Of a stretch of DNA of 64,000 bases, positions 1 through 59,500 are shown in pieces. Numbering within the stretch: position 1 is the stretch's first letter; each line of letters begins with the position of its first letter. This stretch comes from Saccharomycopsis phalli (Eukaryota > Ascomycota > Saccharomycetes > Ascoideales > Saccharomycopsidaceae). The DNA lies in the NCBI GenBank assembly GCA_020342235.1, contig CP073216.1, forward strand, positions 930,001 through 994,000, given 5' to 3'. The translations under genes were made by a program, and so were the position numbers. The notes beneath the pieces were generated by a model. The model was not told where the DNA came from. It saw only the letters and a program-made list of their open reading frames with translations, and did not search any database.

Positions 1-1
1 A

Positions 2-7924: not shown

Positions 7925-9025
7925 ATGACGACTGTAGAAAAGATCAAGGCCATCGAAGATGAGATGGCCAAAACCCAGAAAAACAAAAACACCGAGTTCC
8001 ATCTTGGTCAGCTAAAAGCGAAACTCGCGAAACTTCGGCGTGAGTTATTGACCCCTACGGGCGGTGGAGGTGGACCTGGGATTGGGTTTGACGTTGCGAA
8101 AACCGGGATTGCTAGTGTGGGATTTGTGGGGTTTCCGTCGGTGGGCAAGTCGACGTTGTTGTCGAAGCTCACTGGTACCCATAGTGAAGCTGCTGCGTAC
8201 GAATTCACCACGTTAACCACGGTTCCTGGAACCATCAAGTACAAAGGTGCAAAGATCCAGATGCTTGATTTGCCGGGGATCATTGAAGGTGCAAAGGACG
8301 GCCGGGGACGTGGTAAGCAGGTGATTGCGGTCACGCGGACCTGTAACTTGCTCTTTATTGTGTTGGATGTGAACAAGCCGCTTAAGCACAAGCAGATCAT
8401 TGAGTACGAGCTCGAGGGGTTTGGAATCCGCATCAACAAGACCCCGCCGGACATTTTGTTGAAGAAGAAGGAAAAGGGCGGCATCAACATCACAAACACT
8501 GTGCCATTGACCCGGCTTACCAAGGACGAGATCCGGGCGGTGATGAGCGAATACCGGTTGAATTCCGCTGACGTGCAGTTCCGGTGCGACGCGACTGTGG
8601 ACGATTTGATTGACGTCATTGAGGCGAAGAACCGGAAGTACATTCCTGCGGTGTATGTGCTAAACAAGATCGACTCGTTTTCGCTCGAGGAGTTGGAGTT
8701 GATGTACCGGATCCCCAACGCAGTGCCAATCAGCTCGGGCAAAGGCTGGAACTTGGACGATTTGCTTGAGATGATGTGGGACCGGTTGAACTTGGTGCGG
8801 GTCTACACCAAGCCCAAGGGCCGTCTTCCGGACTTTAACGAGCCGGTGGTGTTGCGGAACGACAGCTGTTCGGTGGAGGACTTTTGTAACAGTATTCACA
8901 AGAGTTTGGTTGAGGATTTTAAGACGGCGATGGTGTATGGAAGCAGTGTGAAGCACCAGCCGCAGTACGTTGGGTTGAGCCATGTTCTTCAGGATGAGGA
9001 TGTGGTGACTATTTTGAAGAGATGA
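7925..9025 (+). CDS. RBG1: DRG-family GTPase Rbg1
   Basis: The protein has 366 residues, against 369 in S. cerevisiae Rbg1. The start is the first ATG of the frame (MTTVEKIK), as in the family. It has an N-terminal helical region, then an Obg-type G domain with G1 GFPSVGKST (about residues 69-77), G3 DLPG, G4 NKID and an SSGKGW G5 region, and a C-terminal TGS domain ending [21 protein letters not shown] GTPases work with a DFRP partner (Tma46 for Rbg1) on translating ribosomes in the cytosol. The last 16 codons and the stop belong to a unit that recurs twice downstream. Confidence 0.97.
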
Positions 9026-9613
9026 ATGTTGGTGAGTTATGTAGTAGTGAGTAAATTTATCAGCCGGCCAATGCGATATTATAGTTGTCATGAGTTTTCC
9101 ATAGTATTATCATGAGTTTTCATGTTTACATGAGTGATCATGTTATCATGTTATAGTGTGTTATCCTAGTTATCATATTATCACGAGTTATCACGAGTCA
9201 TCATGGTTATAATGTGTTATCATGGTTATAATGTGTTATCATGGTTATAATGTGTTATCAAGGTTATAATGTGTTATCATAGCTATCCATAGTATTATCA
9301 TAGTTATCCATGTTCTTTAGGACGAGGATGTGGTGACTGTTTTAAAGAGATGAATGTTGGTGACTTATATAGTAGTGAGTAGAATTCATCAGCCGGCCGA
9401 TGCGAATATCATAGTTATCATGTTGTCATGTTGTCATAGTTATCCATAGCATTATCACGAGTTTTCATGTTATCATGTTATCATGTTATCATAGTTATAC
9501 ATGCTCTTCAAAACGACAATGTGATGACCATGTCAAAGAAATAACCAATGTTAGTGACTTATATACTACCAAATAGTATTCATCTACAATAGCCAGGCAA
9601 TGCGCATATCATG
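8981..9613 (+). repeat. Threefold tandem copy of the RBG1 3' end with AT-rich filler
   Basis: Copy 1 (8981-9092) covers the last 15 RBG1 codons, the stop and about 65 bp downstream, including CAGCCGGCCAATGCG. Copy 2 (about 9309-9421) repeats this with roughly 10% change and keeps GATGTGGTGACT and GAGATGAATGTTGGTGA. Copy 3 (about 9500-9613) is more diverged. Between copies 1 and 2 lies an array of GTTATCATGGTTATAATGT units (9181-9300). Copies 2 and 3 lack the upstream gene and are not genes. Confidence 0.85.
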
Positions 9614-9637
9614 TTACCATAAACTATCACGTCATAT

Positions 9638-10192
9638 CTATATATTCCACGCAGCAATGACAAAACTGAGGAAAAAAGTCATCTTGAAACTTGGATTTTC
9701 CAACAACAACGATTTCAAGTTCACAGTTTGCTTACCCAAACTCACCATGCCATTCCACGGGATCTTCACAATCCCACGCAGCTCCAAAAACTCCAAGGCC
9801 AAGAACCCGCCAAGAGACAAGAGCCCAATGATATACGAGAGCTTGCCAATGATAACCCCCAAAAACAAGCCGCAGATCGACCCATATGTCAAGTCCTGGT
9901 AGTCCAATGTCTTTTTGACCTTGGGCAAGCCAACATCGTTAGCTCCTAGCCGGTACTTTGGAGCACCGACTGCCTCGTTAGACACCTGAGAATTAGTACT
10001 AAAATAAACCCCCGAGGCCAAAGAACCAGCCAACAACAACGCAAACTTTGACACTCCTGGAGGAGACACGGCCTTGGATTTTACAGCGACCTTTGGAAGA
10101 GCAGTGCGGGTAAAGCTCTGGGTGCCGAGCCGCCTGGCTCCAAGTCTTAAAGCGGAAAAAGAATTTGAAAGTAAGCCAACACGATTAAACAT
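9638..10192 (-). CDS. FUN14: FUN14-family mitochondrial outer-membrane protein
   Basis: The protein has 184 residues from the first ATG (MFNRVGLL). A basic, Ser-rich N-terminus of about 60 residues precedes a C-terminal FUN14 domain with DLTYGSICGLFLGVIIGK, then LGGFLALEFLELRGIVKIPW, matching the glycine-rich G-x3-G-x3-GK pattern and the paired membrane helices of the family. Human FUNDC1 and FUNDC2 are mitophagy-related relatives; the yeast protein is mitochondrial and its role is not settled. The gene converges with RBG1, and its 3' end lies 25 bp from the last decayed RBG1 copy. Confidence 0.85.
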   Translation of the reverse strand: MFNRVGLLSNSFSALRLGARRLGTQSFTRTALPKVAVKSKAVSPPGVSKFALLLAGSLASGVYFSTNSQVSNEAVGAPKYRLGANDVGLPKVKKTLDYQDLTYGSICGLFLGVIIGKLSYIIGLLSLGGFLALEFLELRGIVKIPWNGMVSLGKQTVNLKSLLLENPSFKMTFFLSFVIAAWNI

Positions 10193-10321
10193 CTCGCAAA
10201 CACTCCACAAATTGCGGCCCGACAGCAATCACTCACCGCGTCTTACCCGGCTGCATACAGAACAGGACCAGAGTATTGGGCTGAGTCTACAGAGGGCAAT
10301 TAAACCTCTATTGATACATAC

Positions 10322-11080
10322 TTATTTGGCAACAGTCAAGTAGTCAGCGTACTCATCAAATGGAGAGGCAGTCAAGGCGTTTTCCTTCCACAAGTTTGGA
10401 GTCAAGAAACCGTAGGTGTTACCAATGGCAGCAAAAGCAGCCTTCAAGGTGTTCTCGGTGGTTCTTGTGGATCCAGAGGAGGAAGTGTAGGCATCTTGGA
10501 TACCAGCCAACTCCAAAAGTCTCTTGACGGCAATGGAGGCAACCAATCCAGAACCTCTTGGGGCTGGAATCAATCTAACAACAACAGATCCACACTTACC
10601 GGTGGTCTTGTTGGCCAACGAGTGTGGCTCACCCAAGTTGGATCCCCAGTAACCTCTTCTGACTGGAATGATCGACAACTTGGCGATGATGATAGCAGCT
10701 CTGATGGCAGTAGCGACTTCCTTAGCGGTCTTGACACCCAAACCAACGTGTCCGTTCTCGTCACCAATGATGACAACGGCCTTCATTCTGGTTCTTTGAC
10801 CGGCTCTGGTCTGCTTTTGGACAGACTTGATCTTGGTCAATTGGTCCTTCAATCCTGGCAAGATTTGGTCGACAATTTGGTACTCCTTGACTGGCAAAGA
10901 GTGCAAGTAGATCTCCTCCATGGTGGTGATCTTACCAGCCTTCACCAATCTTCCCAACTTGGTGACTGGAGTCCATCCCTTTTCTCCATTGTCTCTACCT
11001 CTTCTTCCTCCTCTTCTACCCTTGAATCCTCCTCTACCTCCTCTTTGAGGTCTCTCTTGTGGCTTAGCTTCAGTGGACAT
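10322..11080 (-). CDS. RPS2: 40S ribosomal protein S2 (uS5)
   Basis: The protein has 252 residues, close to S. cerevisiae Rps2 (254). It has an RG-rich N-terminus ([13 protein letters not shown], a likely arginine-methylation site), then the S5 double-stranded-RNA-binding fold ([16 protein letters not shown]) and the C-terminal S5 domain with PRGSGLVAS. It belongs to the small subunit near the mRNA entry site. Leucines are almost all TTG, typical of a highly expressed CUG-Ser yeast gene. No intron is needed. It is divergent from OM14 across about 565 bp with several CACGTG boxes. Confidence 0.98.
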
Positions 11081-11645
11081 TGTTTATTTCGTCGGAATTT
11101 AATTCGTGGAAGTGCGGGTTGTTGCCTTCAGTCGACGGTATAATATATATTCTCGAGCCGCTGGAGAAAAAAAATGTCTGCATCCCATTGACAAATCACG
11201 TGAGTGAGTGGTCACATTGTGCACGTGCACTAGCACGGGGCAAGTGTACAGGGTAAAGAGAGCAAACAAGGATCAGCAGTCACACACGTGATTGCGGAAA
11301 TATGCATGTGTCAAATGCGGGGACGTAGCCCAGACGTTCTTCAAAGCAGTGTCCAACGCTTGTCTAGTACAAGCAAGATTGTGGAGTGTGTCTGCTCCAG
11401 CTATTTCAACTGAGTTTTCAAAGTGTATAGACGAATAGCGAAAGAGCCAGTGAGAGTTTGCGCATATGCACGCCGACCCATGCGTGATGGTGCTTTGACG
11501 TGGGAGCAAAGCATAGGTTGCTTGCACCAACTACTTATAGATAAGGGTTTGCCATTGCTTTGAAACAACACACTGGTACATTTTCCAAAACACGATTTTT
11601 TTTGATTGCCGAGTCTAATTTTATTGTTTGTGGTTAGTTGATATA
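11081..11645. promoter_or_regulatory. RPS2/OM14 divergent promoter with CACGTG boxes
   Basis: CACGTG occurs at 11197-11202 (within a perfect TCACGTGA), 11222-11227 and 11285-11290. Cbf1 and Tbf1 are reported as major regulators of ribosomal protein genes in Candida albicans, so the boxes nearest RPS2 are good Cbf1 candidates. The assignment is inferred from the motif only. Confidence 0.5.
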
Positions 11646-12215
11646 ATGAGGTGAGTAGTCTGTGATAGTCTGTGATTATAACCACGATGAGCTAACTGTA
11701 GTTACGCCGAGAAAGCAGCTGAAAAGGGATCATTGGGAGCGGAAATCGACCTTGATAAGCAGGAAGTTGACAAGGAGGTCTTGGAGGCCAAGGCAAAGAT
11801 TGAGGAGGAGTTGGAGGACGCAGAGAAAAAGGCCAGGGAGGTGATCAAGGAGGAGGGCAAAAAGGCCGAGAAGAAGCTCAAGGAGATGGAGAAGAAGGTT
11901 CACGAAGCCGAAAACAGCTTGATTAAGTTGCTCAAGAAGATTGGCGGGGCTATTGGGTACTACACCGAAGTTGCTGCCGAGAAAACCGGGTCAGCTGCCT
12001 ACTGTGTTACCGAGGAATTGAAGAACCCAGTGGTGGCTACACAAACTGTAGTTACTGCCACTGCAATTGCCGGGGCTGTATGCGCGTACCAAGAGAGACT
12101 CAAGTTGCGGAAGCTTCCAGAGGAGACGTTGTACATTTATGCGGCTGTGGCGACTGGTTTTGTTCTTTTGGACGGCTATGTGTTTAGCAAGTACTACAAA
12201 AAGTGCGGGAAATAA
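11646..12215 (+). CDS. OM14: Om14-like mitochondrial outer-membrane protein, one intron
   Basis: Exon 1 is ATGAG (11646-11650), the intron is 11651-11701 (51 nt, GTGAGT, GCTAAC, TAG), and exon 2 is 11702-12215. The join reads MSYAEKAAEKGSLGAEID and gives 172 residues. A long, highly charged coiled coil (about residues 15-80) precedes three hydrophobic stretches. ELKNPVV and the end LLDGYVFSKYYKK match S. cerevisiae Om14 (LQNPVV, LTLDGIISKKYY). The N-terminal coiled coil is absent from the 134-residue S. cerevisiae protein. Om14 sits in the outer membrane with porin and Om45 and has been proposed as a receptor for the nascent-chain complex on ribosomes. Confidence 0.85.
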
Positions 12216-12301
12216 AGATGTCGTGGAAGTTGGTGTGGGAATTGGGCAAGAAGTGCCCGAGGAATAATCTACTGCAAGGTGTTTCATTTTGTTAGGAATG
12301 A

Positions 12302-16261: not shown

Positions 16262-16600
16262 AATTTGGATAGCATTCCTGTCAAACACAATTCTGCCACT
16301 TGAATAGTTTTCCTACTAAAATGCAATTCTGGTCATGGCTTGAATATCTTGTTGAAATGCAATTCTGACCATGACTTGAATATCTTGTTGAAATGCAATT
16401 CTGACCATGACTTGAATAATGTTCCTGTTAAATACAATTCTGACCATGACTTGAATAATGTTCCTGTTAAATACAATTCTGGTCATGGCTTGAGCTTTCC
16501 TATTGAAATACAATTCTGGTTATAATCTGAATAGCATCCTGTTAAATACAATTCTGGTCATAATCTGAATAGCATCCTGTCAAATACCACTATACCGCTT
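16262..16600. repeat. ~26-29-bp minisatellite, about 12 copies
   Basis: Degenerate units built from AATACAATTCTGGTCATGAC and TTGAAT, with spacers such as ATGTTCCTGTTA. It lies about 60 bp from the small array at the PYC stop codon. Confidence 0.85.
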
Positions 16601-16662
16601 CGTCTCAACCATCTCACTACATGACCACTGCACAACTGCATTTATTGGCAACACTATACAAC

Positions 16663-16709
16663 AGCATCACTTCCCGGCATCACTTCCGGCATCACTCCCG
16701 GCATCACTT
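16663..16709 (-). repeat. 12-bp array starting at the PYC stop codon
   Basis: On the coding strand the last codons AAGAAG and stop TGA run into GTGATGCCGGGA units, four in all with one-base length changes. The TGA is inside the first unit. Confidence 0.75.
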
Positions 16710-19700
16710 CTTCTCCTCGGCAATCACCTTGCACACCAAGTCCGCCGAATCAACATTGTCATTCTCCTTCACCGACAAATCGCCCACAGTCCCCTCGTGC
16801 GGCGCGCTAATGACCATTTCCATCTTCATGGCCGACAACACACACAATGGGTCGCCCTTTTTGACTGACGACCCGTTGTGCACCTTGACTTCGACAATGA
16901 CACCAGCCATTGGTGTACCGACCTCCTCTGGCTTGTGGGCGTCGGCCTTCAACTTTGCCGGCTTCTCGACCTTGATGCTGCGGTCCTCGACTGTGACCTT
17001 ACGATGTTCACCATTCAACTGGTAGTACACGTCCTTCTTGCCGTCGGAGGCGCCCGAGATGGCGGTCATCTTGAAGATCAAGATCTTGCCCTTTTCAATC
17101 TCAATGGAGATCTCCTCGTCGATCTGCGGCGGCGCAAGGAAGAACCGCGTTGGGATCACCGACAAGTCGCCGTACTTCTCCTGGACCTTGTGGAAGTCCT
17201 CGTACACCTTTGGATACATGTTGTACGACGCCACGTCGTCCTCAGTAATGTGCTCGTACCGGCTGGCCAAGTCGTGCTTGATCGCCGCCAAGTCAAATGG
17301 CGGCAACTCCAAGCCCGGCCGGACGTCCAACTTCCGTCGTTTGCCCTTGAGAATGTCGGTGCGCAACGGCTCCGGGAATCCGCCGTACGGCTGGCCGATT
17401 TTGCCCTCGAAAAAGTCCAACACCGAGTCTGGGAAGTCCAACGAGTTCGCGAGCCGCTTGACGTCGTCTCCAGTGAGCTTGTTGGACACCATAAACTGCG
17501 CCAAGTCGCCCACAACCTTCGAGGTCGGCGTCACTTTCACAATGTCGCCAAGAAGATAGTTGGCCTCGCGGTACGCGGCCTTGGTTTCCGCCCACTGGGC
17601 GCCCAAGCCGACCTGTTGTGCCTGGAAGATCAAGTTGGTCAACTGGCCTCCCGGAATCTCGTGCGAGTACACCTCTGGGTCTGGTCCCTTCAAGTCGGCC
17701 TCAAACACCGAGTACAACAACCGCATCTGCGCCCAGTACGCGTCGACCTCGGTCAATTGCGCCGGGTCCAACCCGGTGGAGATGCCGTCCAACGAGGCAA
17801 TCACCGCGTTGATGGATGGCTGCGACGTTAATCCCGAGAGCGAGTTCGACGCGCAGTCGACCGCGTCGGCTCCGGCTTTTGCACACGCGACCATTGAGGC
17901 TACTCCTGTGCCGGCAGAGTCGTGGGTGTGCACGTGGATCGGCAAGTGCGGGTACTTTTTGCGGATCGCGCCGACCAACTTCGTGGCTGCGGATGGTCGT
18001 AAAGTTCCAGCCATGTCCTTGATGCCCAAGATATGGGTGCCCATTTTCACAACCTCGTCGACAAAGTCCAAGTAGTATTGCAAGCTGTACTTCTTGCCCT
18101 CTTGCAACATGTCGCCCGAGTAGCACACTGTGGCCTCAACCACTCCGCCAGCTTTTTTCACGGCGCTGACACCGACTTTGAGCTGCTCGAGGTCGTTCAA
18201 CGCGTCAAACACCCGGAAAATGTCGACGCCATTCTCCTTGGCCTGCTTCACAAAATGGTCAATGGCATTGTCTGGCAACGACGAGTACGCGACTCCATTC
18301 GCCCCACGCAACAACATCTGGAACGGGATGTTTGGCACCGCCTTCCGCAACTTGCGCAAACGGTCCCATGGGTCCTCATACAAGAACCGCATAGCCACGT
18401 CGAACGTGGCGCCACCCCAGCACTCGAGCGCAAACGCGCCCTTTAACGCGTGCGATGTCGTTGGGGCAATCGCCAAGAGGTCGTAGGTACGGACACGCGT
18501 CGCGAGCAACGACTGGTGCGCGTCTCTCCAGGTGGTGTCCATGATCAAACACCCGTCGTAGTCGCGCACCGCCCGGGCAAACGCCTCAGGACCCTTTTCA
18601 AGCAAGAGCGGCCGCCAGCCGTCTTTTGCCGGATGCGACACGTCGACGACCTTGCCGTGGTCGTGCAAAACCGGAATCGTCGGCTCGGTGACAAGCTTTG
18701 GCACGCCGACCTGGCCCTTGATGGAGGAACCGTTGACGGCAAGATCGGCTAAGTACGCCAAGATCTTCTGGGCACGGTTCCGCGACTCGACCATCTCAAA
18801 CAACTGCGGGGTGTCGTCGATGAAGGTGGTCCAGCAGTCGCTCGAGATAAACACCGGGTGCGTGAGCAACGTCAAGAGGAACGGGATGTTGGTCTTGACG
18901 CCCCGGATCCGGAACTCGATCAACGCCCGGATCATCTTCCGCCGCGCAATCTCGTACGTGCTCCCTGAACACGAGCACTTGACCAACATCGAGTCGTAGT
19001 GCGGCGAAATCACGCTGCCTGCGAACCCGTTGCCTCCGTCCAACCGCACTCCGTTTCCTCCCGCCAGACGGTACACCTCGATCTTACCCGTGTCTGGAGC
19101 AAAACCCTTGGCCGGATCCTCGGTGGTGATTCGGCACTGGATCGCAAACCCACGCGTCGTGACCTTGTCCTGCAACAAGCCAAGCTCCTCGAGCGAGGCT
19201 CCAGCAGTGATCTGGATCTGCGCGCTGATGATGTCGACGCCGGTGATTTCCTCGGTGATGGTGTGCTCGACCTGGATCCGCGGGTTGATCTCAATGAAGT
19301 AGTGGCGGTTCTGCGCGTCGACCAAGAACTCGGCGGTTCCCGCGTTGACGTAGTTGGCGGTTTTGGCGAGCTTCACCGCGTCGGTCAAGATCGCGTTGCG
19401 CACGTCCTTCGGGAGCGTCTTTGCCGGCGCGATCTCCACCACTTTCTGGTGTCTCCGCTGCACCGAGCAGTCGCGCTCAAACAAGTGGATCACGTTGCCA
19501 TACAGGTCCGCCAACAATTGCACCTCAATGTGCTTTGGCTTGTCCAAGAACCGCTCCACAAAACACGTGCCGTTGCCGAAACTCGCCTTGGCCTCCGAGG
19601 TTGCCCGGTTGAACGCGTCGGCAATGTCGTCGCCCTCGCGCACCACGCGCATCCCGCGTCCGCCACCCCCAAACGCGGCCTTGATGATTACGGGGTACCC

Positions 19701-21146: not shown

Positions 21147-21147
21147 C

Positions 21148-21887: not shown

Positions 21888-22745
21888 CTACTTCTCCAAC
21901 TCTCCATCCAGGGGACCCTGCAATCTGCCAGTGGCCTCATTCTCTGGTAAATCCTCATTGTCTCCATCCCCATCAACCCCCTTATCCTCTCCTCCCTTGT
22001 TCTCTCCTTCCTTCTCTCCCTCTTGCTCCTCCCCATCTCCTTTCCTCTTCGCCTTCCGCTTCCGCTTCCGCTTCTGTGGCTCCACCGCCTCCTTCTTCCG
22101 CTTCACACTAAGCGGATTCGGCTCCTTGGGACCACGTCGTTTCACCCCCTTCACCTCCTCCTCCTGCGGCTTGCTCTTGCCCGAATCAACGTCATTCAAC
22201 CCCTGCCGGAGCTTCGACCGCTCAAACTCCTGCTGGGCGCCCTGCGTCGCGTCGCTGAGCGGCTCAAGCACCATCACCGACCGGTTCATATATATCAACG
22301 GCACCCCAGCCACTTTCCGGAGCTTTCGCCGCAACTCCACGTCCTGGCTCGCCACAACATACCGGTGCTTGTTTTTTCCGCCAATATTCACAATCGACTC
22401 GATACATTTGCTCGGCTCGAGCGCATGGTCTTTATGTCCGCAGCGCCGCCGCTCAAAGCTCTTTGCAAGGGCAATTGCCAGCTCGTTTTTCGTGTCATAG
22501 AGTGCATAGATGGCACACTGCGAAATCACTAGTTGTTAGATTCGCTTCGCGTCGGAATACTACTTACTCGGCTTGACTTCGTCCTGCAACGTCCGCTTCA
22601 AGTACTTGACAAGATCAAACTTGGCAGTCTCCGAAAGCATGACAATCTCATGGTCCACAACCACCTGGTACGGCGCCCGGAACCGGAACGCGTGATCGTA
22701 CACGATCATCTGCTTCTTGTACGACTTGGCCCGTTTTTGTCGCAT
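21888..22745 (-). CDS. UTP23: rRNA-processing protein Utp23, one intron
   Basis: Exon 1 is 22745-22568 (starts MRQKRAKSYKKQMIVYD), the intron is 22567-22529 (39 nt, GTAAGT, CTAAC, TAG), and exon 2 is 22528-21888. The join gives VKP-MISQC, matching S. cerevisiae Utp23 LKPMITQC; total 272 residues. It is an Fcf1/Utp23-family PIN-like domain with a Cys/His zinc-binding region (QC, ERRRCGH, SKC) and the conserved HRYVVASQDVELRRKLR and PLIYMNRSVMVLEPLSDA. The last ~100 residues are a Lys/Glu-rich disordered tail. It is an SSU-processome factor needed for release of snR30 in 18S rRNA maturation in the nucleolus. It is divergent from the GEP7-like gene across 102 bp. Confidence 0.95.
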
Positions 22746-23711: not shown

Positions 23712-24261
23712 ATGTCGACGCCTGCCCGAAGAAGATTAATGCGTGATTTCAAGGTGAGTGCAGTGCGTTCCTTACATTTCCAATGCTAACCGTAGCGAAT
23801 GCAACAGGACGCTCCATCAGGGCTCAGTGCCTCGCCATTACCAGATAATGTTCTTGTGTGGTAAGTATTATCCCCCCACATGCTTAGCAGATTCTAATCC
23901 CAGGAACGCGGTGATCATCGGGCCTTCGGACACGCCGTTTGAGGACGGGACGTTCAAACTCCGCATGACGTTTGACGAGCAGTATCCTAGCAAGCCGCCG
24001 GCCGTGAAGTTTATCAGCAAGATGTTCCATCCGAACGTGTATGCGAGCGGCGAGCTTTGTTTGGACATTCTCCAGAACCGATGGTCGCCTACATATGATG
24101 TTGCCTCGATCTTGACGTCGGTGCAGTCGCTCTTTAACGACCCGAACATTTCGAGTCCGGCGAACGTGGAGGCGGCAAACTTGTTTAAGGACCATCGGTC
24201 ACAGTATATACAGCGGGTGAAGGAAACGGTGGAGGAGAGTTGGGAGGATGAGTTTGATTGA
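23712..24261 (+). CDS. RAD6: Ubiquitin-conjugating enzyme Rad6/Ubc2, two introns
   Basis: Exons are 23712-23753, 23796-23860 and 23904-24261; introns are 42 nt (GTGAGT, GCTAAC, TAG) and 43 nt (GTAAGT, CTAAT, CAG). The spliced product has 154 residues and aligns with S. cerevisiae Rad6 without gaps: [38 protein letters not shown]. The HPN motif ([10 protein letters not shown]) and the active-site Cys88 ([12 protein letters not shown]) are present. The E2 works with Rad18 on PCNA, Bre1 on histone H2B and Ubr1 in the N-degron pathway. It ends ESWEDEFD and lacks the long poly-acidic tail of S. cerevisiae Rad6. Confidence 0.98.
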
Positions 24262-24284: not shown

Positions 24285-24438
24285 CACGTGATCACGAAAT
24301 TGGTCACGTGACAATCGACTTGAATCACGCAAATTGATGGTCGTCTGAGCTTGCAGAAATTGTAGTCAGATCACGTGAATAAATCACATGACACAAAATC
24401 ATATAATGTATCACGTGATATATCATGTACTACACGTG
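24285..24438. promoter_or_regulatory. Cluster of five CACGTG boxes
   Basis: CACGTG at 24285, 24305, 24372, 24412 and 24433, most extended to TCACGTGA, plus one CACATG at 24385, within 154 bp upstream of SLM5. Candidate factors are bHLH proteins such as Cbf1. Confidence 0.6.
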
Positions 24439-24477
24439 ACTACACCTTTTTTCAGTTGCCCATTGCAAAATCACTTT

Positions 24478-25983: not shown

Positions 25984-26001
25984 TGGGGAATGATTATAAG
26001 T

Positions 26002-26210
26002 GAGTGGAATATTTTTGAGTGGTATATTTTTGAGTGGTATATTTTTGAGTGGTATATTTTTGAGTGGTATATTTTTGAGTGGTATATTTTTGAGTGGTAT
26101 ATTTTTGAGTGGTATATTTATGAGTGGAATATTTATGAGTGGAATATTTATGAGTGGAATATTTGTGGAGTGAAATATTTATGAGTGGTATATTTATGGA
26201 GTGATGTATC
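26002..26210 (+). repeat. 15-bp tandem array
   Basis: About 14 copies of GAGTGGTATATTTTT, the last five changed to GAGTGGAATATTTAT. It begins 20 bp after the SLM5 stop codon. Confidence 0.95.
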
Positions 26211-26317: not shown

Positions 26318-27271
26318 ATGAACTTCAAATTAAAACCCAAAGTAGATGGTAAAAAAAAAAGGGTAAATAGAAAAGTCTTTGGCCAGATCGATAGTGACGA
26401 CGACAACCTGGAACCTTCAGTAGGACAAATCATCAAACAGCAACAAATATCGGTCGAGAAGCAAGCCCAGCAAGAACTACAAGAGGAAACGGTTTATCAA
26501 TATGACGAGGTTTATGACGAGTTAAAAGCACGCAAAGCCCAAAAAGACCATGAGCGCCAGACGTCTGTCAAATATGTTGAAGGATTGATCAAGGCCAAAC
26601 AGGAGAGGAAGAAACGGAACATGGTGGTTCAAGACATGCGGGTAAAGCAGGAATTGCAGAATGAGGACCAGAGCGTCAAGGAAAAGTACAAGGATAAGGA
26701 GGTTTTTGTCACTAGTGCATACAAAAAACATCAAACTGAGGTGGAGGAATTGGTGGCTAACGACAAGTCTGCAGGGGAAAGGAAGGAAGGGTTGACGAAG
26801 CGATTTTATTCAAATTTTTTGGAAGGCAGTGATGATGAGAGGGGTGAAGAGCATGGAAATGAGAAGTATGAAAGTGAGAAATCTGGAAATGAAAAGTCTG
26901 GAAATGAAAAGCCTGGAAACGAAAAGTCTGGAAATGAAAAGTCTGGAAATGAAAAGTCTGGAAATGAGGCAGAAAGTGGAGGAGTAAAGACCAAAAATGA
27001 CCTGGGACTAAATGAATTGGAAAACTCTAGCAAGGCAAAAAATATGATAAATAAACCCACAAGTTCACACCAAAGTCCTCGGAGTAAACAGAGTGTCAAA
27101 CCCAGCAAAAAGCTCGGAGCCGGATTAAACATAATGGAAAGTGAACCGGAGGTTGAAGCATCGTTATTATCCATGCAAGAATTGGCCACCAGATTGTTTA
27201 AAAGCAAATTGACAGAACAAGAAATCAATGCAGCCAAGAAACGTGCCGCACAACGACTTGGGTTGTCGTAA
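26318..27271 (+). CDS. NSRP1/CCDC55-like nuclear splicing-related protein
   Basis: The protein has 317 residues from a clear ATG. The N-terminal half fits the NSRP1 (DUF2040) family: KKRVNRKVFG with a following DSDDD, YQYDEVYDELKARK, KYVEGLIKAKQERKKR and KEVFVTSAYKKH. Human NSRP1 is a nuclear-speckle splicing regulator; a role in splicing here is inferred from the family. The second half is disordered and carries six to seven five-residue repeats (KSGNE), then a basic stretch and a conserved-looking helical end. The last codons are part of a 39-bp duplication. S. cerevisiae has no obvious equivalent that I can name. Confidence 0.8.
   Translation: MNFKLKPKVDGKKKRVNRKVFGQIDSDDDNLEPSVGQIIKQQQISVEKQAQQELQEETVYQYDEVYDELKARKAQKDHERQTSVKYVEGLIKAKQERKKRNMVVQDMRVKQELQNEDQSVKEKYKDKEVFVTSAYKKHQTEVEELVANDKSAGERKEGLTKRFYSNFLEGSDDERGEEHGNEKYESEKSGNEKSGNEKPGNEKSGNEKSGNEKSGNEAESGGVKTKNDLGLNELENSSKAKNMINKPTSSHQSPRSKQSVKPSKKLGAGLNIMESEPEVEASLLSMQELATRLFKSKLTEQEINAAKKRAAQRLGLS
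26866..26970 (+). repeat. 15-bp in-frame coding repeat
   Basis: AAGTCTGGAAATGAA repeated six to seven times, giving KSGNE units in the NSRP1-like protein. Confidence 0.9.
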
Positions 27272-27340
27272 TATAGTAAGGTAATGGCAAATGGATATGC
27301 ATTGTTGTAATATAGCAAGGTAATAGCAAATGGCCATCAA
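27263..27340 (+). repeat. 39-bp duplication containing the NSRP1-like stop codon
   Basis: Copy 1 starts TTGTCGTAATATAGTAAGG at 27263 and includes the last two codons and the TAA. Copy 2 starts TTGTTGTAATATAGCAAGG at 27302. A shorter repeat (AATGGCCATCAATAC) follows to about 27362. Confidence 0.85.
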
Positions 27341-30044: not shown

Positions 30045-30575
30045 ATGAGTGGGGTCAATGTGTCGTCGCGGGTGCTTAACATGAAGTTCATGCGTGCTGC
30101 TGTGAGCAAGGAGGAGAAGTTGAAGAAGGAGGAGCAGCAGCAGCAGCAGCGTGACAAGTCCCAGTGGAGTCTTGGCCAGCAAAGTCGCATTGTGCAGCCA
30201 GTGAGCAGTGTTGGGTATTCTTCCATGAGGGAGTTTTTTGAGGATGATGAGTCGGATGAGGAGATTGTGGGGCGGCGGGTGTTGGGTGCGGCTGAGCCGG
30301 AGCCCGAGGAGGAGATATTGGAGACGAAGATTGTGAAGGAAAAGAAGCAAAAGAAGCAAAAAGGCAAGAGCAAGAAGTTGGTGCAGGCCAAGTCTGGGAT
30401 TCCTTCGGTGGAGGAGTTTATGCTGGGTGGGATGGAAGAGGGGGGTGAGCGAAAGATGGAAGGGACAAGAGGTCAGCGAAATATGGAAGGGACAAGAGGT
30501 CAGCGAAATATGGAAGGGACAAGAGGTAAGCGAAAGATGGAAGAGAAAGGAGGTAAGCGAAAAAGAAGTAAGTAG
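30045..30575 (+). CDS. MPP6: Nuclear exosome cofactor Mpp6
   Basis: The protein has 176 residues from ATG (MSGVNVSSRVLNMKFMRAA). The start SSRVLNMKFM is nearly identical to S. cerevisiae Mpp6 SSRVMNMKFM, which binds the exosome. A W-containing motif (SQWSLG), VGYSSMREFF and VGRRVLG follow in the same order as the WDL, VGYSELR and GRKTFG of Mpp6. The tail is Lys-rich with a nuclear-localisation-like KKQKKQKGKSKK, then four nine-residue repeats (MEGTRGQRN). It helps the nuclear exosome and Mtr4 degrade and trim RNAs. Confidence 0.88.
   Translation: MSGVNVSSRVLNMKFMRAAVSKEEKLKKEEQQQQQRDKSQWSLGQQSRIVQPVSSVGYSSMREFFEDDESDEEIVGRRVLGAAEPEPEEEILETKIVKEKKQKKQKGKSKKLVQAKSGIPSVEEFMLGGMEEGGERKMEGTRGQRNMEGTRGQRNMEGTRGKRKMEEKGGKRKRSK
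30457..30560 (+). repeat. 27-bp in-frame repeat at the MPP6 3' end
   Basis: Four copies of ATGGAAGGGACAAGAGGTCA-type units, the last diverged (MEEKGGKRK), followed five codons later by the stop. Confidence 0.85.
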
Positions 30576-35550: not shown

Positions 35551-35834
35551 CGTCAATGAAATGGACTTGGCTGGACCATACCTTTCTGACAAGATTGGGC
35601 TAGCATAGAGTCAAGTAATCTCTCATTTCATTACAACTATACCAGTGAACCATTTCTGTGAATCAAAATATACACCCATGGACGTATTTAGATTGAGCAA
35701 TATTCCAAGGCTCGTATGATAAATTACAAGATGGTTGTAGAATCTCATTGTAATAATCTCTATACTCTGCATCTCTAATTTCACTCTCAGCTTTCCACCC
35801 ACTCCACAATCCCACTCCACAACTCTCACACCAT

Positions 35835-37166
35835 CTACTCCAACATCCCAAAATCAACTCCATCCGCGTCCCAGCCATCCACCGGATCAGTCAAGTTCCG
35901 CGAAATCTTCCACAACTGAATCATATTATTATCACTCACACTAGACAACAACCACTTCAAGTTCTCGTCAGGATGCCACGACAAGTCCGTCACCAAACTT
36001 GTATGTCCAGCATGCATCATAAACAACTCCGGTGCACCATCGTCCGCATCATCCTGGTTCTGCTCCTCACCAATCCGCGAAACGTCCCAGATAATCACCC
36101 GTCGATCCTCTGAGCCAGAAGCAAGAAACCCATCTTGATGTGGCGACCACTCGAGCGTGGTCACCGACTCAGAATGGCCCATCATGGAATGGAGCTTGGA
36201 GCCGATATTCCGAAGATCGTGCAACGCCACAATGGAGTCCGACGACCCGGTGGCTAGCAAATTGCGCGAAAATGGCGAAAATGACACGCTATTCACCGAT
36301 TTCTCGCTCACCGACGCCAGAAGCACCGCCCGCGAAGGGTCACGTGTGTCATGAATGTGGAGGCACGTGTCGTCCGAGACCGAGGCAAACACCGAGGCAT
36401 CAAACTTGTGCCATTTGACGTCATTGACAATGTCCGAGTGGCTCGTGATCACGTGGAGCGGGCTCGCAGTCTGCTGGGCCGATTCTGTGTCAATTGTATA
36501 CTTGATGCTTGAAATGTCCCACTGGCAGATCGAGTGGTCATCTGACCCGGTGACCAAAGTGCCCTCATGGAAACTGTTCCAGTCCAATCCGTAGGTGTTC
36601 TGGTCATGGTGCTGCAACCGGATCACCGGAGCCCGGTTGACTTTCTTCGACTCTGCCTGGACGTAAATATACCCCTCTCCCAGTCCCGACACCGACGCCA
36701 AAACTTTCGGGTTTTGCGGCATGTATCTTGCCCGGTTCACCTCCGACTCGTAGTGCTCGAGCTTCCGCTTCACCTTTAGCCGGGTGCTGTTTTGCACCCG
36801 CTCACTGTCCCTTTTATACTGCTGGGAAATGTATTCTGGAAGATTCGCACCAACCACCTTGACCTGCTCCTGCTCAGACCCCGAGGTGTTTGTGCCCAAA
36901 AGAAGACTCGACTCAATGGAATGCTCCAGAGTATGGCTCCCAGGGAACCACTGCACCGAAAGCGACGGCCATTTCAAACTCGACTCGTAGACAAAGTCAT
37001 ACATGTAATGGCAGTTCTTTTTCCATAGCTCATATTCCTGGTCAACAGTTAGCTCCTGCTGCGCTTCCAACTCCGCGTCGCGCTCGGCCAGTGCAGCCAA
37101 CGCCTTGATATTCTGCAATTCGTTCTGCGCAGTCTTTAGCGACTCTTCATCAAATGTCACTGGCAT
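35835..37166 (-). CDS. HAT2: Histone acetyltransferase type B subunit Hat2 (RbAp46/48 family)
   Basis: The protein has 443 residues from the ATG of MPVTFDEE. It has an N-terminal helix and the CAF1C/H4-binding segment (YELWKKNCHYMYDFV, SSLKWPSLSVQWFP), then about six WD repeats (GSDDHSICQWD, HSDIVNDVKWH, DTCLHIHDTRDP, GSSDSIVALHDLRN, GSEDRRVIIWDVSRIG, SDNNMIQLW). RIGEEQ-DDADDGAPELFMMHAGH matches S. cerevisiae Hat2 QIGAEQ-DDAEDGVPELIMVHAGH more closely than Msi1. It binds histone H4 and partners Hat1. The N-terminus has a ~40-residue extension relative to S. cerevisiae. Confidence 0.93.
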   Translation of the reverse strand: MPVTFDEESLKTAQNELQNIKALAALAERDAELEAQQELTVDQEYELWKKNCHYMYDFVYESSLKWPSLSVQWFPGSHTLEHSIESSLLLGTNTSGSEQEQVKVVGANLPEYISQQYKRDSERVQNSTRLKVKRKLEHYESEVNRARYMPQNPKVLASVSGLGEGYIYVQAESKKVNRAPVIRLQHHDQNTYGLDWNSFHEGTLVTGSDDHSICQWDISSIKYTIDTESAQQTASPLHVITSHSDIVNDVKWHKFDASVFASVSDDTCLHIHDTRDPSRAVLLASVSEKSVNSVSFSPFSRNLLATGSSDSIVALHDLRNIGSKLHSMMGHSESVTTLEWSPHQDGFLASGSEDRRVIIWDVSRIGEEQNQDDADDGAPELFMMHAGHTSLVTDLSWHPDENLKWLLSSVSDNNMIQLWKISRNLTDPVDGWDADGVDFGMLE

Positions 37167-40263: not shown

Positions 40264-41584
40264 TCAGGCACAAACCAATTGAATCGAATCAGCTGGAGAA
40301 TCAATGCTGGAAACTTGAAAAGACTTGCTAGAGGAGTAAAGAATCGTAATGCCAGGAAAAACACTGGCAATTCCATCACTCGACTTTCTGTCCATTTCAA
40401 GTTTCCGCTTCTTTTCTAACTTCTTTTTTCGATATCGTCTCTTTGCACCAGCTTTCTTGGTCTTGGCTCCAGCGGTTTTAGCCATTGATTCAATCGCTAG
40501 TTTGCCTGAATTTTTCTTAACATTTTGTTTCTTAAATGATTTTGTCTCTGCAGACATCTCAACAAGTTGATTGGCAAGTTGATTAATCTTTTTCGCTTTA
40601 TTAATCTTGTACTGTTCCAATAAATCGGTGGCTTCTGAGTAAAATTCTTTGTATTGTGTGATCTGAGTTGACACAAACTCTTCTTGTGAATCAGTCAATT
40701 TGATATCCTTGGCATTTGGCTTAATCAAGGAGAAAACCAAGTCAAAACCTGCCTTTAAAGCAAGAGCAAGAAATGTTCCAATGATAATTCCAATCATCAT
40801 AGCTACGAAAGTTTCATGGATTACTAGTCCCTCAAACTCGATTTTCTGAATGTTTTCCCGCCAGCGATTTCTCCCAACCTTATAGATTTCGGAATAGAGA
40901 GTTTCAAATGTCTTAGCATATTGTTGAATTTCATTTGTCCAATAACTGGTCCACTCAGAGTTGAGCAACGCAGTTTTTTGAGTGTCTATGATCTCAAAGA
41001 GTTGTAAGTCAGTGAGATTAAACACATAGTTTCTGAGTCTATCAAAACTGTTGACAATATATTGTTGAATTGCTTCTGCCCAATGACTGGTCCATTCAGG
41101 ATTGAACAACGCAGTTTTTTTAGTGACCATGAATTTTAAGAACTGTGAGTCAGTAAGATAAAACATACATCCTTGGATTGTTTCAAAAGACTTGAAAACA
41201 CATTGACGAATTTCATTTTTCCAATGACCGGTCCACCCAGAGTTGAACAACACAACTTTTTGAATGTCTATGGTCTTCAAGAGCTGTCTGTGAGTTAGTG
41301 AGATGAAAAATACAATCCTCAAGTGTTTTGAAAGTCTTGAAAATCCATTTTTGAATCTCTTATATCCAATAACTGGTCCATTCAGAGCTGAGAAACGCAG
41401 TTTTTTGAGTGCCCATGAATTTAAAGAGTTGTGAGTCGGTGAGACCAAACACCCAATATTCGAGTGTTTTTGATAAAACAAGTTGGATTCTGCAAGTAAG
41501 TTGAATGAAATGAGTAATTTGAAAGAAACGAGTCATTTCACGGAGTTTAAGCATCATAACTGTGATTTTAGCAAAGTAGTCCAT
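40264..41584 (-). pseudogene. Four-repeat membrane protein, reading frame interrupted
   Basis: The minus strand codes for four copies of a ~47-residue unit with LTDSQLxK, a TQKTALLNSEWTSYW core and a spacer, at DNA spacings of 141, 141 and about 145 bp. The first copy follows a good ATG at 41584 (MDYFAKITVMM) but lies in a different frame from the other three, and an in-frame TAA follows its SYWI. Copies 2-4 continue openly into a membrane helix (VAMMIGIIIGTFLALALKA), a helical region and a very basic tail (AKRRYRKKKLEKKRK), ending at 40264. So either a young pseudogene, a sequencing error, or a gene starting elsewhere. I do not recognise the family. It is AT-rich and isolated, which fits a lineage-specific gene. 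Confidence 0.5.
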
Positions 41585-52530: not shown

Positions 52531-52753
52531 TTGATGGATGAAAAACAATGCAAAATCTGAAAAACAAATTGGAGGTTGAGTACCTGATTGTTTGGTATCA
52601 TTGTGTTGATAATCATATTATATTATATTATATAATATTATATGCATATTCATATTCATATTTGATATATCATTCATATTTGATATTTATATTCACATTT
52701 GATATCACTCATTTGATATCATATTTGATATCATATTTGATATCACCCTCACC

Positions 52754-55384: not shown

Positions 55385-55750
55385 AAAGGAGGTTGGGATT
55401 TCACAGTCGAAAAACAGTGCCGTTTAATGGGATCACCCTAGGATAAACTTTTGGCTTGATTTTAAAATTGTATGATTAGAGCCATGGGCCTTGAGCAACA
55501 GCAAGAAGCGTTGCAGTAAAGAAAAGGAACTACCCATCCAGAAGTGACGAATATGATTTTACGAATAAACTATGTAGGTCTGTAAAGAGGTGGTGAAAAT
55601 GCTCAAGTTGGGTTTTTAATCTCAGGCAGCCATTGAGGGTGGGCAGAGGGTTTTCTTGCCTTGGGATTTTCCAAGTGGAGTATAATTGTCGAATCTGCAA
55701 GTTTTTGGAGTCAGTTTGTGGCTTAATAGAGGATAAATATTATTGAGAGG
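55385..55750 (+). repeat. Dispersed repeat, copy C
   Basis: Matches copies A and B in order: GGGATTTCACAGTCGAAAAA, GCCGTTTAATGGGATC, ATTTTAAAATTG then ATGATTAGAGCC, and the end GGATAAATATTATTGAGAG. It is diverged and partial in the middle. Family unresolved. Confidence 0.5.
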
Positions 55751-56064
55751 CGACAGACCTCGAATTTGCGGGCCACTTTAGGGTGATGGTTGTAGTTTTG
55801 GCAAGGTATTCGTGGGTAATGGCGTTGTATTGATTACAGTTTACTAGTTACTGCTGTAATGTATAATATATATAAATCTGCTCCTCAATTTAGTGGACCT
55901 GGTGATCCTTGAATACTGACTGTATATTTTAGACGTTTGACGGCAATTTATTCCGAATCTTGGGATATTGGTTATTGCATTCTGCTCAACTTATTGAGTG
56001 TATGCGGTGAATGTACGTCAAGAGGTGGGATTTCTGCAATGCTGCGATTTCTAGATTGGCTAGA

Positions 56065-56240
56065 TATGAATATACCAAGCAATAGACTGTATGCATTGTA
56101 GTTGAATATACCAAGCAATAGACAGGTTGCATTCTACTTGAATATACCAAGTAATAGAGCGGATTTGCATTCTACTTGAATATACCAAGTAATAGAGCGG
56201 ATTTGTATTCTACTTGAATATACCAAGCAATTGACTGATG
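56065..56240. repeat. ~36-bp minisatellite
   Basis: Four to five copies of TGAATATACCAAGCAATAGA plus a variable GCATTCTACT part. Confidence 0.9.
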
Positions 56241-56302
56241 GCATTGTACTCAATACACCATGCCGTTGCTTTCCTACTCGATACACACTCGATACTCCTA
56301 CT

Positions 56303-56402
56303 ATACTCCCACTCTATATAGTTGGCCTGGTAATCATTTCCGTCTTGAAGAAATACTCCTACTCTATATACTTGGCCTGGTAATCATTTCCGTCTTGAAG
56401 AA
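56303..56402 (-). repeat. 50-bp duplication of the BUD16 3' end
   Basis: ATACTCCTACTCTATATA-TTGGCCTGGTAATCATTTCC (written in two parts) occurs twice at exactly 50-bp spacing. The right copy holds the last 14 codons and stop of BUD16, the left copy lies downstream of it; they differ at three or four positions. Confidence 0.93.
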
Positions 56403-57282
56403 AATACTCCTTGCTCTGAATCAAGCGCAAATCATTCACTTTGATCCGGTCACCCTGAGCCTTGGCTTGTTTTTTCAACTCGGACTGGTACGACAAGCGC
56501 AAGACTTTGCCCATGATGGTAAGAACCTGGCCGACTGCCGTTTCCAAGGGGTGTTTGGATGAGTCCTCTTTGGACAAGTCCTCCTGTTTAATACAACAGT
56601 CGGCCAAAAGCGCAGTAAACAAGTCGCCCGTGCCGTAAAACGTAGCCGGGATCTTGTCAATGACAAAATATGCCACCTTCCCTCGGGATGAGGCAGCACA
56701 AACAATACTCTGGGGATACTCCTTGACATCCACCGACGTCACTACAAGGTTTCTGACCCTCGGAAACGCATCCAAGAACGCGTGAATCGCCTGGGAAAGC
56801 GACTGCAAGCTGGAGACTTGCACCCCGGTCAAGAGCAGCAACTCAAACTGGTTTGGCGAGGCCAAAAACACGTCCTCGGAGGCGAAAAGCTGCTTGTACA
56901 ACGGTACAACCTCCAGCGGCACATAGAGCCGCCCCAGATCGCCGAGAACCGGGTCGACGAACCACTTGAGCTGCGGGTTCTTTGCCCGAGCGAGCCGGGA
57001 GATGTCAAGAACCGCATGGAGAGAGTCGGCGGAGCCAAGGTACCCGGACAACATTGCGTGGTGCAGCACGTCGGCGATGTCGACCATGGCGGTATATATG
57101 CTGCGGAGCTCGGCGCCAGAGTAGGCAGAGCCGCCGTGCGAGCCGTAAGCCTTGTGGTTCAGGAACTGCACAGTGTTCAACGCGTCGACGTCCCAGCCGC
57201 GGAGCTGGAGCGGGAACGTGGCCGCCTTGTTTCCCACATAGCCGTGGACGACGTGCGACTGGACAGAGAGAAGCTTGGGCAT
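56359..57282 (-). CDS. BUD16: Pyridoxal kinase
   Basis: The protein has 307 residues if it starts at MPKLLSVQSHVVHGYVGNKA, as S. cerevisiae Bud16 does (MPRLLATQSHVVHGYVGNKA); an in-frame ATG seven codons earlier (57303) would add MAPLLPQ. It has the ribokinase-like fold with SHVVHGYVGNKAATFPLQ, DPVLGDLGRLYVP, SPNQFELLLLTG and FYGTGDLFTALL, which carries the catalytic Asp of GTGD. It phosphorylates pyridoxal, pyridoxine and pyridoxamine with ATP in the cytosol to supply PLP. The serine of VQFSNH is a CTG codon (57160-57162). It is divergent from the Zn2Cys6 gene. Confidence 0.95.
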   Translation of the reverse strand: MPKLLSVQSHVVHGYVGNKAATFPLQLRGWDVDALNTVQFLNHKAYGSHGGSAYSGAELRSIYTAMVDIADVLHHAMLSGYLGSADSLHAVLDISRLARAKNPQLKWFVDPVLGDLGRLYVPLEVVPLYKQLFASEDVFLASPNQFELLLLTGVQVSSLQSLSQAIHAFLDAFPRVRNLVVTSVDVKEYPQSIVCAASSRGKVAYFVIDKIPATFYGTGDLFTALLADCCIKQEDLSKEDSSKHPLETAVGQVLTIMGKVLRLSYQSELKKQAKAQGDRIKVNDLRLIQSKEYFLQDGNDYQAKYIE

Positions 57283-57303
57283 TTGCGGAAGCAGAGGAGC
57301 CAT

Positions 57304-57412
57304 GCCGCAGGGAAAAAAAAAACCCCGCGAGATCGCGGCTGCACGCGGCTGCACGCGGCTGCACCGGGCACGCGACCACGATATTGGCACCCTTTGGCGA
57401 TTTTGTAATCCC
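57304..57412. promoter_or_regulatory. Compact BUD16/Zn2Cys6 divergent promoter with 10-bp repeats
   Basis: GCACGCGGCT occurs twice, flanked by close matches GATCGCGGCT and GCACCGGGCA (57333-57372), in a 110-bp GC-rich region with a C/A run. Such direct repeats could be binding sites for a regulator of both genes. Confidence 0.4.
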
Positions 57413-59311
57413 ATGAACCATCCAGCGGGCCTAGGGCGGATAGGCAAGCCCGAACGCACGGTGCAGACGACGCGGGCGACGAAAGCGTGTGCCGCGTGCC
57501 GCAAGAAAAAGACCCGCTGCTTCCCGTCCGACGGCGTCGGCTGTTTGCGCTGCCGGTCGCTCGACTACGTGTGCAGCTTCGAGGACGACGCGCTTTCCGG
57601 CGGGCGCTTCCGGTCGCTCGACCAGATGCGCCGCTGGTCGGACGCAGCGCCCGAGCACGTGCCCGGCCTGGAGCCGGGCGACCTGTTGGCAGCAATCCAT
57701 AACGACATTCGCAAAATCCTCAGCCACTTGGCTCATGACGCTCGCGCGCACGTGCCAGCACCACCTGAGTCACGTGATCACGGCCTGGGGTCGGTGGTTC
57801 CATATGCCCATGTCACTCTGCCGTATAATGTGTTGAAGGAGGGACCCTCCGACGCGCTCTTGCCGCTCTGTGTCACCAGTTTGCTCGAGCCTGCGGTTCC
57901 TCCGCTGGAAATCGACGTCGTGCTGTTGCGGCTTGTTTCCTCCTCAGAGGCCCTTGGGCTTTTGAGCGTGTTTGTCGCAAATTACGGCAAGTGGATCCTG
58001 GTCCGGCCCGGCGTGTCCATCGAGTCGTTGCTAGCAGAGTACCAGAAAAACCTGCCGCTTCTTCTCGACGTGGCTCTTCTTTTGGCCCTCCGCAGCTCGC
58101 AAAACTACTCCCTCCGCAAGAAATTGTCCCCTCTTCTCGTGTCCCGCATCTCCCTGGCAGTGTCCCGGCGCATCCTCAACTGCCCGGCCACCGATTTGTG
58201 CTTCATCATGACCCTCCTCCTCCTCTCGCTCTTTGGCTACTCGCTCTCTCTGCCCGAGTTCGTCGTCGACCCCTGGCTCTACTCCTCCATTGCGCTCTCC
58301 CACTTTATCACCGCCATCAACTACAACCCGCTGTTTGTCAATGCAACCGTCTCTCTGCCAGACGCAGACTCCCAGTTCGACCTCCTCACATACATGCGGG
58401 TCTACGACCACTTGGTCGTCACCCATCTCTTTGCTTGTATCGTCAGTGGAAGAGCGTGCCTGATTGACCGCGAACGGCTCAGCCGCATCCGCGCAAAGTT
58501 GGACATTGTCTACGCAGGAAACTTTGACGGCAAAATGACCGCAGAAATCTACCTCTGCAACATCTTGTACGACTTCTTCTTGGTCCAGTACGAGCCCCAG
58601 GTGCTCAGCCGCACTGAGAAACGCTTGGAGCGTTGGTACACCGCCTGGAGCTACCTCATCGACCCACAAATGCCCCAGATGTTGGACTTTTTTTACCACT
58701 TCTACCTGCTCCTCATGCACTACCATGTGGGCTTCCAGAGCTTCTTTGGCATCTTGCATCACAGCTTGGCTGATTTCCGTGGTGGTTACGAAGTATTCGA
58801 CGGTATCATCCGCCAAGTCACTCTGGAACAGGCCAGTGTCATGCTCTATAGCTGTATCCGCGTCATTGGCGAAATCTTATCTTCGGTGTCCCGCACAAAC
58901 TTGCACTCAAACCCAGATGCACTGGAACTGTTTGAGTACTATTCTGACCAGATCCACTTTGCCCTGTTTTTCACCCTCATTGTCTACATGCGCATCCTCA
59001 ACTCACACTTCTCCTCCGACGCAGAAAAGGACGCATACGTCCAGTACTTTAACATCCAGGGGAAACGCATCAACATCGCAGGCGATCTTCTGGAATATAT
59101 CTTGCGCGAAGACGACTTGGCTCTCCGCAAGACCCTGTTGATTAACGTCTCCAAGGACGACTTTGTCGTCTACCTTACCCAGATTATTCTCTTTGTGACA
59201 AAGTTTCTGTCGCTTTCCACGGGCCAGCCAACCAACTTGTTTTTTCGCTATACTGTGACGTTGCAACAGACTTTGAGGGAGTTGTTTCCAAAGCTCCGCT
59301 ATGATTTGTGA
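57413..59311 (+). CDS. Zn2Cys6 fungal transcription factor
   Basis: The protein has 632 residues from the ATG of MNHPAGLGRI. The zinc cluster is Cys26-Cys29-Cys36 and Cys44-Cys47-Cys54 (KACAACRKKKTRC, then CLRCRSLDYVC), with a basic KKK between Cys29 and Cys36. There is no clear linker coiled coil. The remaining ~550 residues are helical and hydrophobic, as in the regulatory middle domain of this class, with many CTG/CTC codons. The target is unknown. The head-to-head arrangement with pyridoxal kinase allows a role in vitamin B6 or amine metabolism, but this is speculation. Another in-frame ATG at 57302 overlaps the BUD16 start region. The last codons lie in a tandem array. Confidence 0.88.
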   Translation: MNHPAGLGRIGKPERTVQTTRATKACAACRKKKTRCFPSDGVGCLRCRSLDYVCSFEDDALSGGRFRSLDQMRRWSDAAPEHVPGLEPGDLLAAIHNDIRKILSHLAHDARAHVPAPPESRDHGLGSVVPYAHVTLPYNVLKEGPSDALLPLCVTSLLEPAVPPLEIDVVLLRLVSSSEALGLLSVFVANYGKWILVRPGVSIESLLAEYQKNLPLLLDVALLLALRSSQNYSLRKKLSPLLVSRISLAVSRRILNCPATDLCFIMTLLLLSLFGYSLSLPEFVVDPWLYSSIALSHFITAINYNPLFVNATVSLPDADSQFDLLTYMRVYDHLVVTHLFACIVSGRACLIDRERLSRIRAKLDIVYAGNFDGKMTAEIYLCNILYDFFLVQYEPQVLSRTEKRLERWYTAWSYLIDPQMPQMLDFFYHFYLLLMHYHVGFQSFFGILHHSLADFRGGYEVFDGIIRQVTLEQASVMLYSCIRVIGEILSSVSRTNLHSNPDALELFEYYSDQIHFALFFTLIVYMRILNSHFSSDAEKDAYVQYFNIQGKRINIAGDLLEYILREDDLALRKTLLINVSKDDFVVYLTQIILFVTKFLSLSTGQPTNLFFRYTVTLQQTLRELFPKLRYDL

Positions 59312-59500
59312 CGGGGAGGAGTGGTTTATAGTTTTCTATGATTTGACAGGGAGTGGTTTAAAGCTCCATTATGACTTGACAGGGAGTGGTTTAAAGCTCC
59401 ACTATGACTTGACAGGGAGTGGTTTAAAGCTCCACTATGATTTGACAGGAAGTGGTTTAAAGCTCCACTATGATTTGTGACAACGAGGGAGTGGTTTAAA
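59290..59500 (+). repeat. 33-39-bp array growing from the Zn2Cys6 gene 3' end
   Basis: Unit 1 contains the last six codons and stop of the gene (AAAGCTCCGCTATGATTTGT then GA). Five further units with AAAGCTCCACTATGATTTGA and CAGGGAGTGGTTT follow, plus diverged pieces to about 59560. Confidence 0.93.

Follow-up and report, generated by a model that had tools for sequence, protein, structure and literature searches.

Gene Ends and Tandem Repeats in the Window

Tandem repeats that run through the stop codons of protein genes were analysed in a 64 kb window of the Saccharomycopsis phalli genome (positions 930,001 to 994,000 of contig CP073216.1). All statistics are confined to this single window, and 26 protein genes within it were used. 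A preliminary description of the same DNA had reported that tandem arrays include the stop codon at five genes (RBG1, PYC, an NSRP1-like gene, BUD16 and a Zn2Cys6 gene), and had proposed this as a rule of array formation. The five loci are genuine, but the rule is without support in the window: their number is that expected by chance, given the density of repeats. Twenty-six genes are too few to settle a claim about the whole genome.

Gene names were taken from the preliminary description or assigned in the present analysis, and are backed by Pfam and PDB matches. Five of the 26 genes are without a convincing family match and rest on the length or look of their open reading frames (ORFs): the MSB2-like mucin, an ORF of 344 amino acids (aa), a COX4-like ORF, a 300-aa ORF (40264-41166) and a 250-aa ORF (61652-62404).

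Repeats were scored at every second base as the best local alignment running through that base to a same-strand site no more than 600 bp away. The cut-off was set at 30, the 99.9% quantile being 29 in one Markov-shuffled copy of the window scored at each tenth base. Tandem Repeats Finder yielded 138 rows, which merged into 54 arrays (score at least 50) covering 7.7 kb of the window. The best-scoring periods of these arrays lay mostly between 10 and 100 bp, the size range of head-to-tail minisatellite units.

At the middle base of the stop codon, the repeat score was 122 for RBG1, 86 for BUD16, 77 for the Zn2Cys6 gene, 54 for PYC and 49 for the NSRP1-like gene, all above the shuffled quantile. 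The corresponding offsets or periods were 328, 50-51, about 33, 12-13 and 39 bp. As had been described, such repeats occur on either strand. The copies and arrays at these five genes are as follows.

8980..9085, plus strand: RBG1 copy 1 (from alignments), comprising the last 14 codons, the stop codon (9023-9025) and 60 bp of 3' flank
9308..9415, plus strand: RBG1 copy 2, offset by 328 bp, matching copy 1 at 97 positions, with 9 mismatches and 2 gaps
9500..9610, plus strand: RBG1 copy 3, with an approximate end; it is the more diverged copy, sharing 78 identities with copy 1 and 82 with copy 2
9088..9503, plus strand: minisatellite between the RBG1 copies, period 8-19 bp, in two blocks (9088-9308 and 9407-9503) with common sequence
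16664..16710, minus strand: PYC stop-spanning array, period 12-13 bp, 3.8 copies, 7 bp within the coding sequence; stop codon 16704-16706
27263..27333, plus strand: NSRP1-like gene, a pair of copies at a spacing of 39 bp, with the last codons and the stop codon (27269-27271) in the first
56303..56411, minus strand: BUD16 array across the stop, 2.2 copies of a 50-51 bp unit
59276..59513, plus strand: Zn2Cys6 array across the stop, about 7 copies of a unit of about 33 bp, the coding one at 59276-59311

The statement that the repeat unit contains the stop codon stood in so far as a repeat crosses all five stops, but it is loose at the Zn2Cys6 gene, where just one of five downstream matches crosses the stop. 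The further statement, that no copy is better preserved than the coding one, failed where it could be judged. The Zn2Cys6 coding copy ranked fifth of seven against the consensus, and RBG1 copy 3 was slightly nearer to copy 2 than to copy 1; at the NSRP1-like gene and BUD16, with two full copies each, such a ranking is uninformative.

The RBG1 coding copy is likely to be the ancestor, since the alignment of the protein with PDB Rbg1 (chain 4a9a_A) extends to the last residue and the C-terminus thus appears conserved. Copy 2 carries an in-frame TAG in place of a CAG of copy 1, and past copy 3 lies the convergent FUN14-family gene, whose stop is at 9638. The BUD16 array has an ABABA form, in which A is the motif ATACTCC bounding the unit, with one A within the coding sequence.

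Three further stops scored at least 30, namely those of SLM5 (39), MPP6 (35) and a WD40 gene (31). A second alignment with different gap costs served as a cross-check on repeats at stops; in it, the SLM5 and WD40 stops were without a match, and the MPP6 matches ended short of the stop.

Stop and Start Codons Compared with Chance

The chance model was obtained by sliding the repeat mask within its own intergenic region. At a score of at least 30, repeats fill 24.6% of intergenic DNA (4.2% of coding sequence, excluding the MSB2-like gene), and stops are therefore expected to lie in repeats often. Eight of the 26 stops did so, against 7.5 expected (P = 0.51). When the regions were widened by 20 or 50 bp into the genes, the expected numbers were 7.4 and 7.0 (P = 0.47 and 0.38, respectively). 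At thresholds of 25, 40, 50 and 60, the stops covered numbered 8, 5, 4 and 3, compared with 8.0, 6.7, 5.0 and 4.2 expected. The threshold of 40 picks precisely the five genes named in the preliminary description. The check suggested there, array overlap with stops against shuffled placement, was thus run within the window alone and gave no excess at any threshold.

Array edges did not gather at stop codons either. The gene-side edges, slightly widened by the alignment score, ranged from 120 bp inside the coding sequence, the limit of the scan, to 828 bp outside it. The edge lay inside the gene in 8 cases and outside in 9, and 9 of the 26 genes had no array in reach. Within the gene, at 50-200 bp from the stop, repeat coverage was 0.07; it grew to 0.25 over the final 25 bp and to 0.31 at the stop itself. 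The first 100 bp of flank had a coverage of 0.30-0.34, and the stretch 100-300 bp downstream one of 0.45-0.50. The stop is a point on the slope of this profile, and the peak lies downstream, which disagrees with the view that arrays are seeded by stop codons.

Start codons were in repeats in 2 of 23 usable cases, against 5.9 expected (P = 0.046); the two were those of the 300-aa ORF of no known family (score 52) and of an aminoacyl-tRNA synthetase gene (37). The starts of BUD16 and the Zn2Cys6 gene were shifted by eye to likelier ATGs, and that of SLM5 was taken as its first ATG. The MSB2-like gene, cut by the window, was left out, as were UTP23 and a ubiquitin-conjugating enzyme gene, whose N-terminal parts seemingly lie beyond the ORF.

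Some observations concern these start regions. The UTP23 (21888-22289) and ubiquitin-conjugating enzyme (23848-24261) ORFs seemingly lack their N-terminal parts, which suggests 5' introns. The longest ORFs of BUD16 (56359-57414) and the Zn2Cys6 gene (57302-59311) overlap head to head, with likely true starts near 57282 and 57413, respectively. An array with periods of 141 and 286 bp (40920-41451) overlaps the start of the 300-aa ORF, which makes that start doubtful. The 223-bp divergent promoter between CDC73 and the tRNA-synthetase gene is 73% repeat; its AT-rich array (52606-52745) ends about 9 bp ahead of the synthetase start.

Reading Frame, Shared Sequence and Proposed Origin

The best-scoring period was divisible by three in all 7 arrays within accepted coding DNA, compared with 13 of 43 intergenic arrays. 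For this count, the array at 24401-24439 (period 19, a coding-sequence row that lies ahead of 24478, the likely start of SLM5) and three boundary arrays were set aside, and the ORF at 40264-41166 was treated as non-coding. In a separate part of the window (1-4792), the MSB2-like serine-rich mucin ORF, named by eye, holds in-frame repeats of 27, 66, 99 and 156 bp and of other multiples of three.

The arrays had little sequence in common. At an E value of 1e-3, only two pairs among the 54 arrays matched, namely the two RBG1 blocks and an AT-rich pair, and a shared repeat family or mobile minisatellite was rejected on this ground. Together, the frame rule and the scarcity of common sequence are what general local duplication filtered by selection would leave.

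We therefore consider it likely that the units containing stop codons are ordinary minisatellites of a repeat-rich yeast, produced by local tandem duplication and shaped by selection, with the stops as passengers. Short tandem duplications would arise often, most simply where short direct repeats allow replication or repair to slip, turning ABA into ABABA, and would then expand. Within genes, selection would spare just those with periods divisible by three. Arrays across start codons would rarely survive, because an extra upstream ATG would alter translation. Across a stop, any period could be tolerated, because the gene-side copy would still terminate the protein unchanged; stops would therefore act like other intergenic positions, and the coding copy would necessarily stand at the edge of the array.

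Excess of Repeats Downstream of Genes

Several results weigh against this explanation. The depletion at starts is marginal, with P ranging from 0.029 to 0.122 over settings, and a direct comparison of stops with starts was not significant (Fisher P = 0.08). The ABABA junction was read at one locus only (BUD16). The main difficulty is the distribution of repeats outside genes. If selection were the sole filter, deep intergenic DNA should match the 3' flanks, and it does not: coverage in the 3' flanks was about 2.5 times that in either the 5' flanks or deep intergenic DNA, and a bootstrap over regions at the main setting gave P = 0.013-0.016 for the comparison with 5' flanks and P = 0.005-0.008 for that with deep DNA.

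In this comparison, the 3' flanks were intergenic DNA lying no more than 500 bp from a stop but over 500 bp from any start, and were 41.5% repeat (8,488 bp). The corresponding values were 16.6% for intergenic DNA near starts only, taken as 5' flanks (7,163 bp), and 16.8% for deep intergenic DNA more than 500 bp from both starts and stops (11,427 bp). Over eight settings, the bootstrap P ranged from 0.003 to 0.036 against 5' flanks and from 0.005 to 0.063 against deep DNA, the weakest value (0.063) being obtained at a threshold of 60 and a distance of 300 bp. Shuffling of gene orientations gave P = 0.015 for the 3' excess, and the excess held without the doubtful genes, without the RBG1-FUN14 region or with two extra ORFs added (P = 0.003-0.041). 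A simple per-gene comparison of the 500-bp flanks was not significant (Mann-Whitney P = 0.21, Wilcoxon P = 0.18).

The wider idea that gene 3' ends favour arrays is backed by the bootstrap and the orientation shuffle but not by the per-gene tests. It is moderately supported, and a process linked to 3' ends is possible. The crowding of arrays downstream of genes came as a modest surprise. The excess in the first 500 bp past genes over deep intergenic DNA is left unexplained by duplication and selection alone, although deep intergenic regions may conceal unannotated genes or promoters.

Strand Skew and Alternative Explanations

In 12 of 15 genes, the repeats of the 3' flank had a G-rich sense strand (P = 0.035), as did 14 of the 17 arrays lying within 300 bp of a stop. 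An array common to two convergent genes was counted at array level for the nearer stop alone, and at gene level for both genes. Non-repeat 3' flanks were G-rich on the sense strand in 12 of 21 cases, and the last 300 bp of coding sequence had a mean skew in the same direction (0.18). Sense-strand GC skew was consequently rejected as proof of R-loops, as coding tails lean likewise on average. The earlier suggestion of R-loops at gene ends draws weakly on the G-rich repeats and is countered by the coding tails, and the G excess is a lead for R-loops, not evidence.

The best of the alternatives is a mutational process at transcription ends, with R-loops or fork collisions at terminators producing tandem duplications across the several hundred bases past genes and sometimes catching stops. 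It is compatible with local duplication under selection, to which it would add a 3' hot zone, and we regard it as unlikely, though with a real chance of being correct. The coverage peak at 100-300 bp past stops, the excess in the 3' flanks, its persistence under the orientation shuffle and after genes or a region had been dropped, and the sense-strand G excess are all in keeping with it. They are opposed by the per-gene flank tests, by the bootstrap setting with P = 0.063 and by the nine genes without a 3' array, FKS and RPS2 among them. RPS2 is a highly transcribed gene. The skew is also a doubtful guide here, given the shared direction in the last 300 bp of coding sequence and the fact that an array common to two convergent genes cannot have the right skew for both.

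Stated more specifically, transcription termination zones would be hot spots of tandem duplication in this yeast lineage, with arrays formed mainly 0-500 bp past genes, a sense strand rich in G, as expected of R-loops, and the crossing of stops as a by-product; this version must be called doubtful.

It is improbable that the downstream arrays were retained as working elements of 3' untranslated regions (UTRs), as poly(A) signals or as extra stop codons. Their position would fit presumed 3' UTRs, and a selected excess of downstream stop codons has been reported in yeasts (PMC1088959). However, the arrays share almost no sequence, their copies diverge, and 9 of 26 genes are without any in reach.

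Duplication seeded at stops or last codons by a common gene-end process is very improbable: eight stops do score as repeat, five of them strongly, but 7.5 are expected, array edges are unclustered at stops, and coverage at stops is below that at 100-300 bp downstream.

Comparison with Known Systems

Ordinary minisatellites in a repeat-rich yeast, the explanation preferred here, agree with known minisatellites in that unique local sequence is tandemly duplicated, units are mostly 10-100 bp long and, at BUD16, direct repeats stand at the unit borders. They differ in that roughly a quarter of the intergenic DNA of the window is repeat, with a preference for 3' flanks, and in the longer spacing at RBG1 (328 bp).

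In yeast with a rad27 deletion, insertions mediated by short direct repeats are defined by the change from ABA to ABABA and outnumber deletions; one example has a 16-bp unit located between two genes (PMC5677150). The BUD16 array shares this ABABA form, although those insertions come from a laboratory mutant (PMC5677150). Its ATACTCC borders also resemble the flanking repeats of 5-10 bp that PMC6947457 cites from Haber and Louis.

The tandem stop codons reported from yeasts (PMC1088959) likewise place additional stops past the true one, but they are single codons under selection, whereas in the arrays of the window whole units were copied and then diverged. The megasatellites of Candida glabrata are yeast tandem repeats as well, but are described as very long (PMC4556013), while the arrays described here are mostly intergenic and of short unit. 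In humans, minisatellite variable number tandem repeats have been reported, when set against other tandem repeats, to be enriched in the 1 kb on either side of genes (PMC8096271), and in Daphnia, fly and bee, tandem repeats have been compared across UTRs, introns, coding sequence and intergenic DNA (PMC3152781). Among the open-licence papers listed, no title or abstract opening reported that stop codons seed arrays or that arrays are concentrated past the ends of yeast genes.

A pattern as striking as repeat units with stop codons at several genes can arise from high repeat density and selection, and sliding the repeats within their own regions is a simple control for such claims. Should the downstream enrichment be true genome-wide, the question whether the ends of transcription give rise to new tandem repeats could be studied in this yeast as a natural system.

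Other Features of the Window

Four further arrays lie at or near gene 3' ends.

16275..16587, minus strand: second array downstream of PYC, periods 36-75 bp, clear of the stop
26001..26195, plus strand: array downstream of SLM5, 15-bp period, beginning 18 bp past the stop
30444..30562, plus strand: MPP6 coding array, in-frame 27-bp period, ending 11 bp ahead of the stop
35798..35834, minus strand: short repeat of 13-15 bp directly past the stop (35835-35837) of the WD40 gene

Relatives were sought with the FKS protein as sole query; none was found in viral contigs, and none of six pattern matches in genome contigs was confirmed. The codon CTG is used by neither RBG1 nor RPS2, once by FKS and twice by PYC, where one of the two aligns with a serine in the best PDB relative. 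Its near-absence and its serine position in PYC probably point to a CUG-Ser yeast, short of proof. A tRNA-Phe (GAA) gene at 63654-63737 was the sole Rfam match in the window to reach the gathering score.

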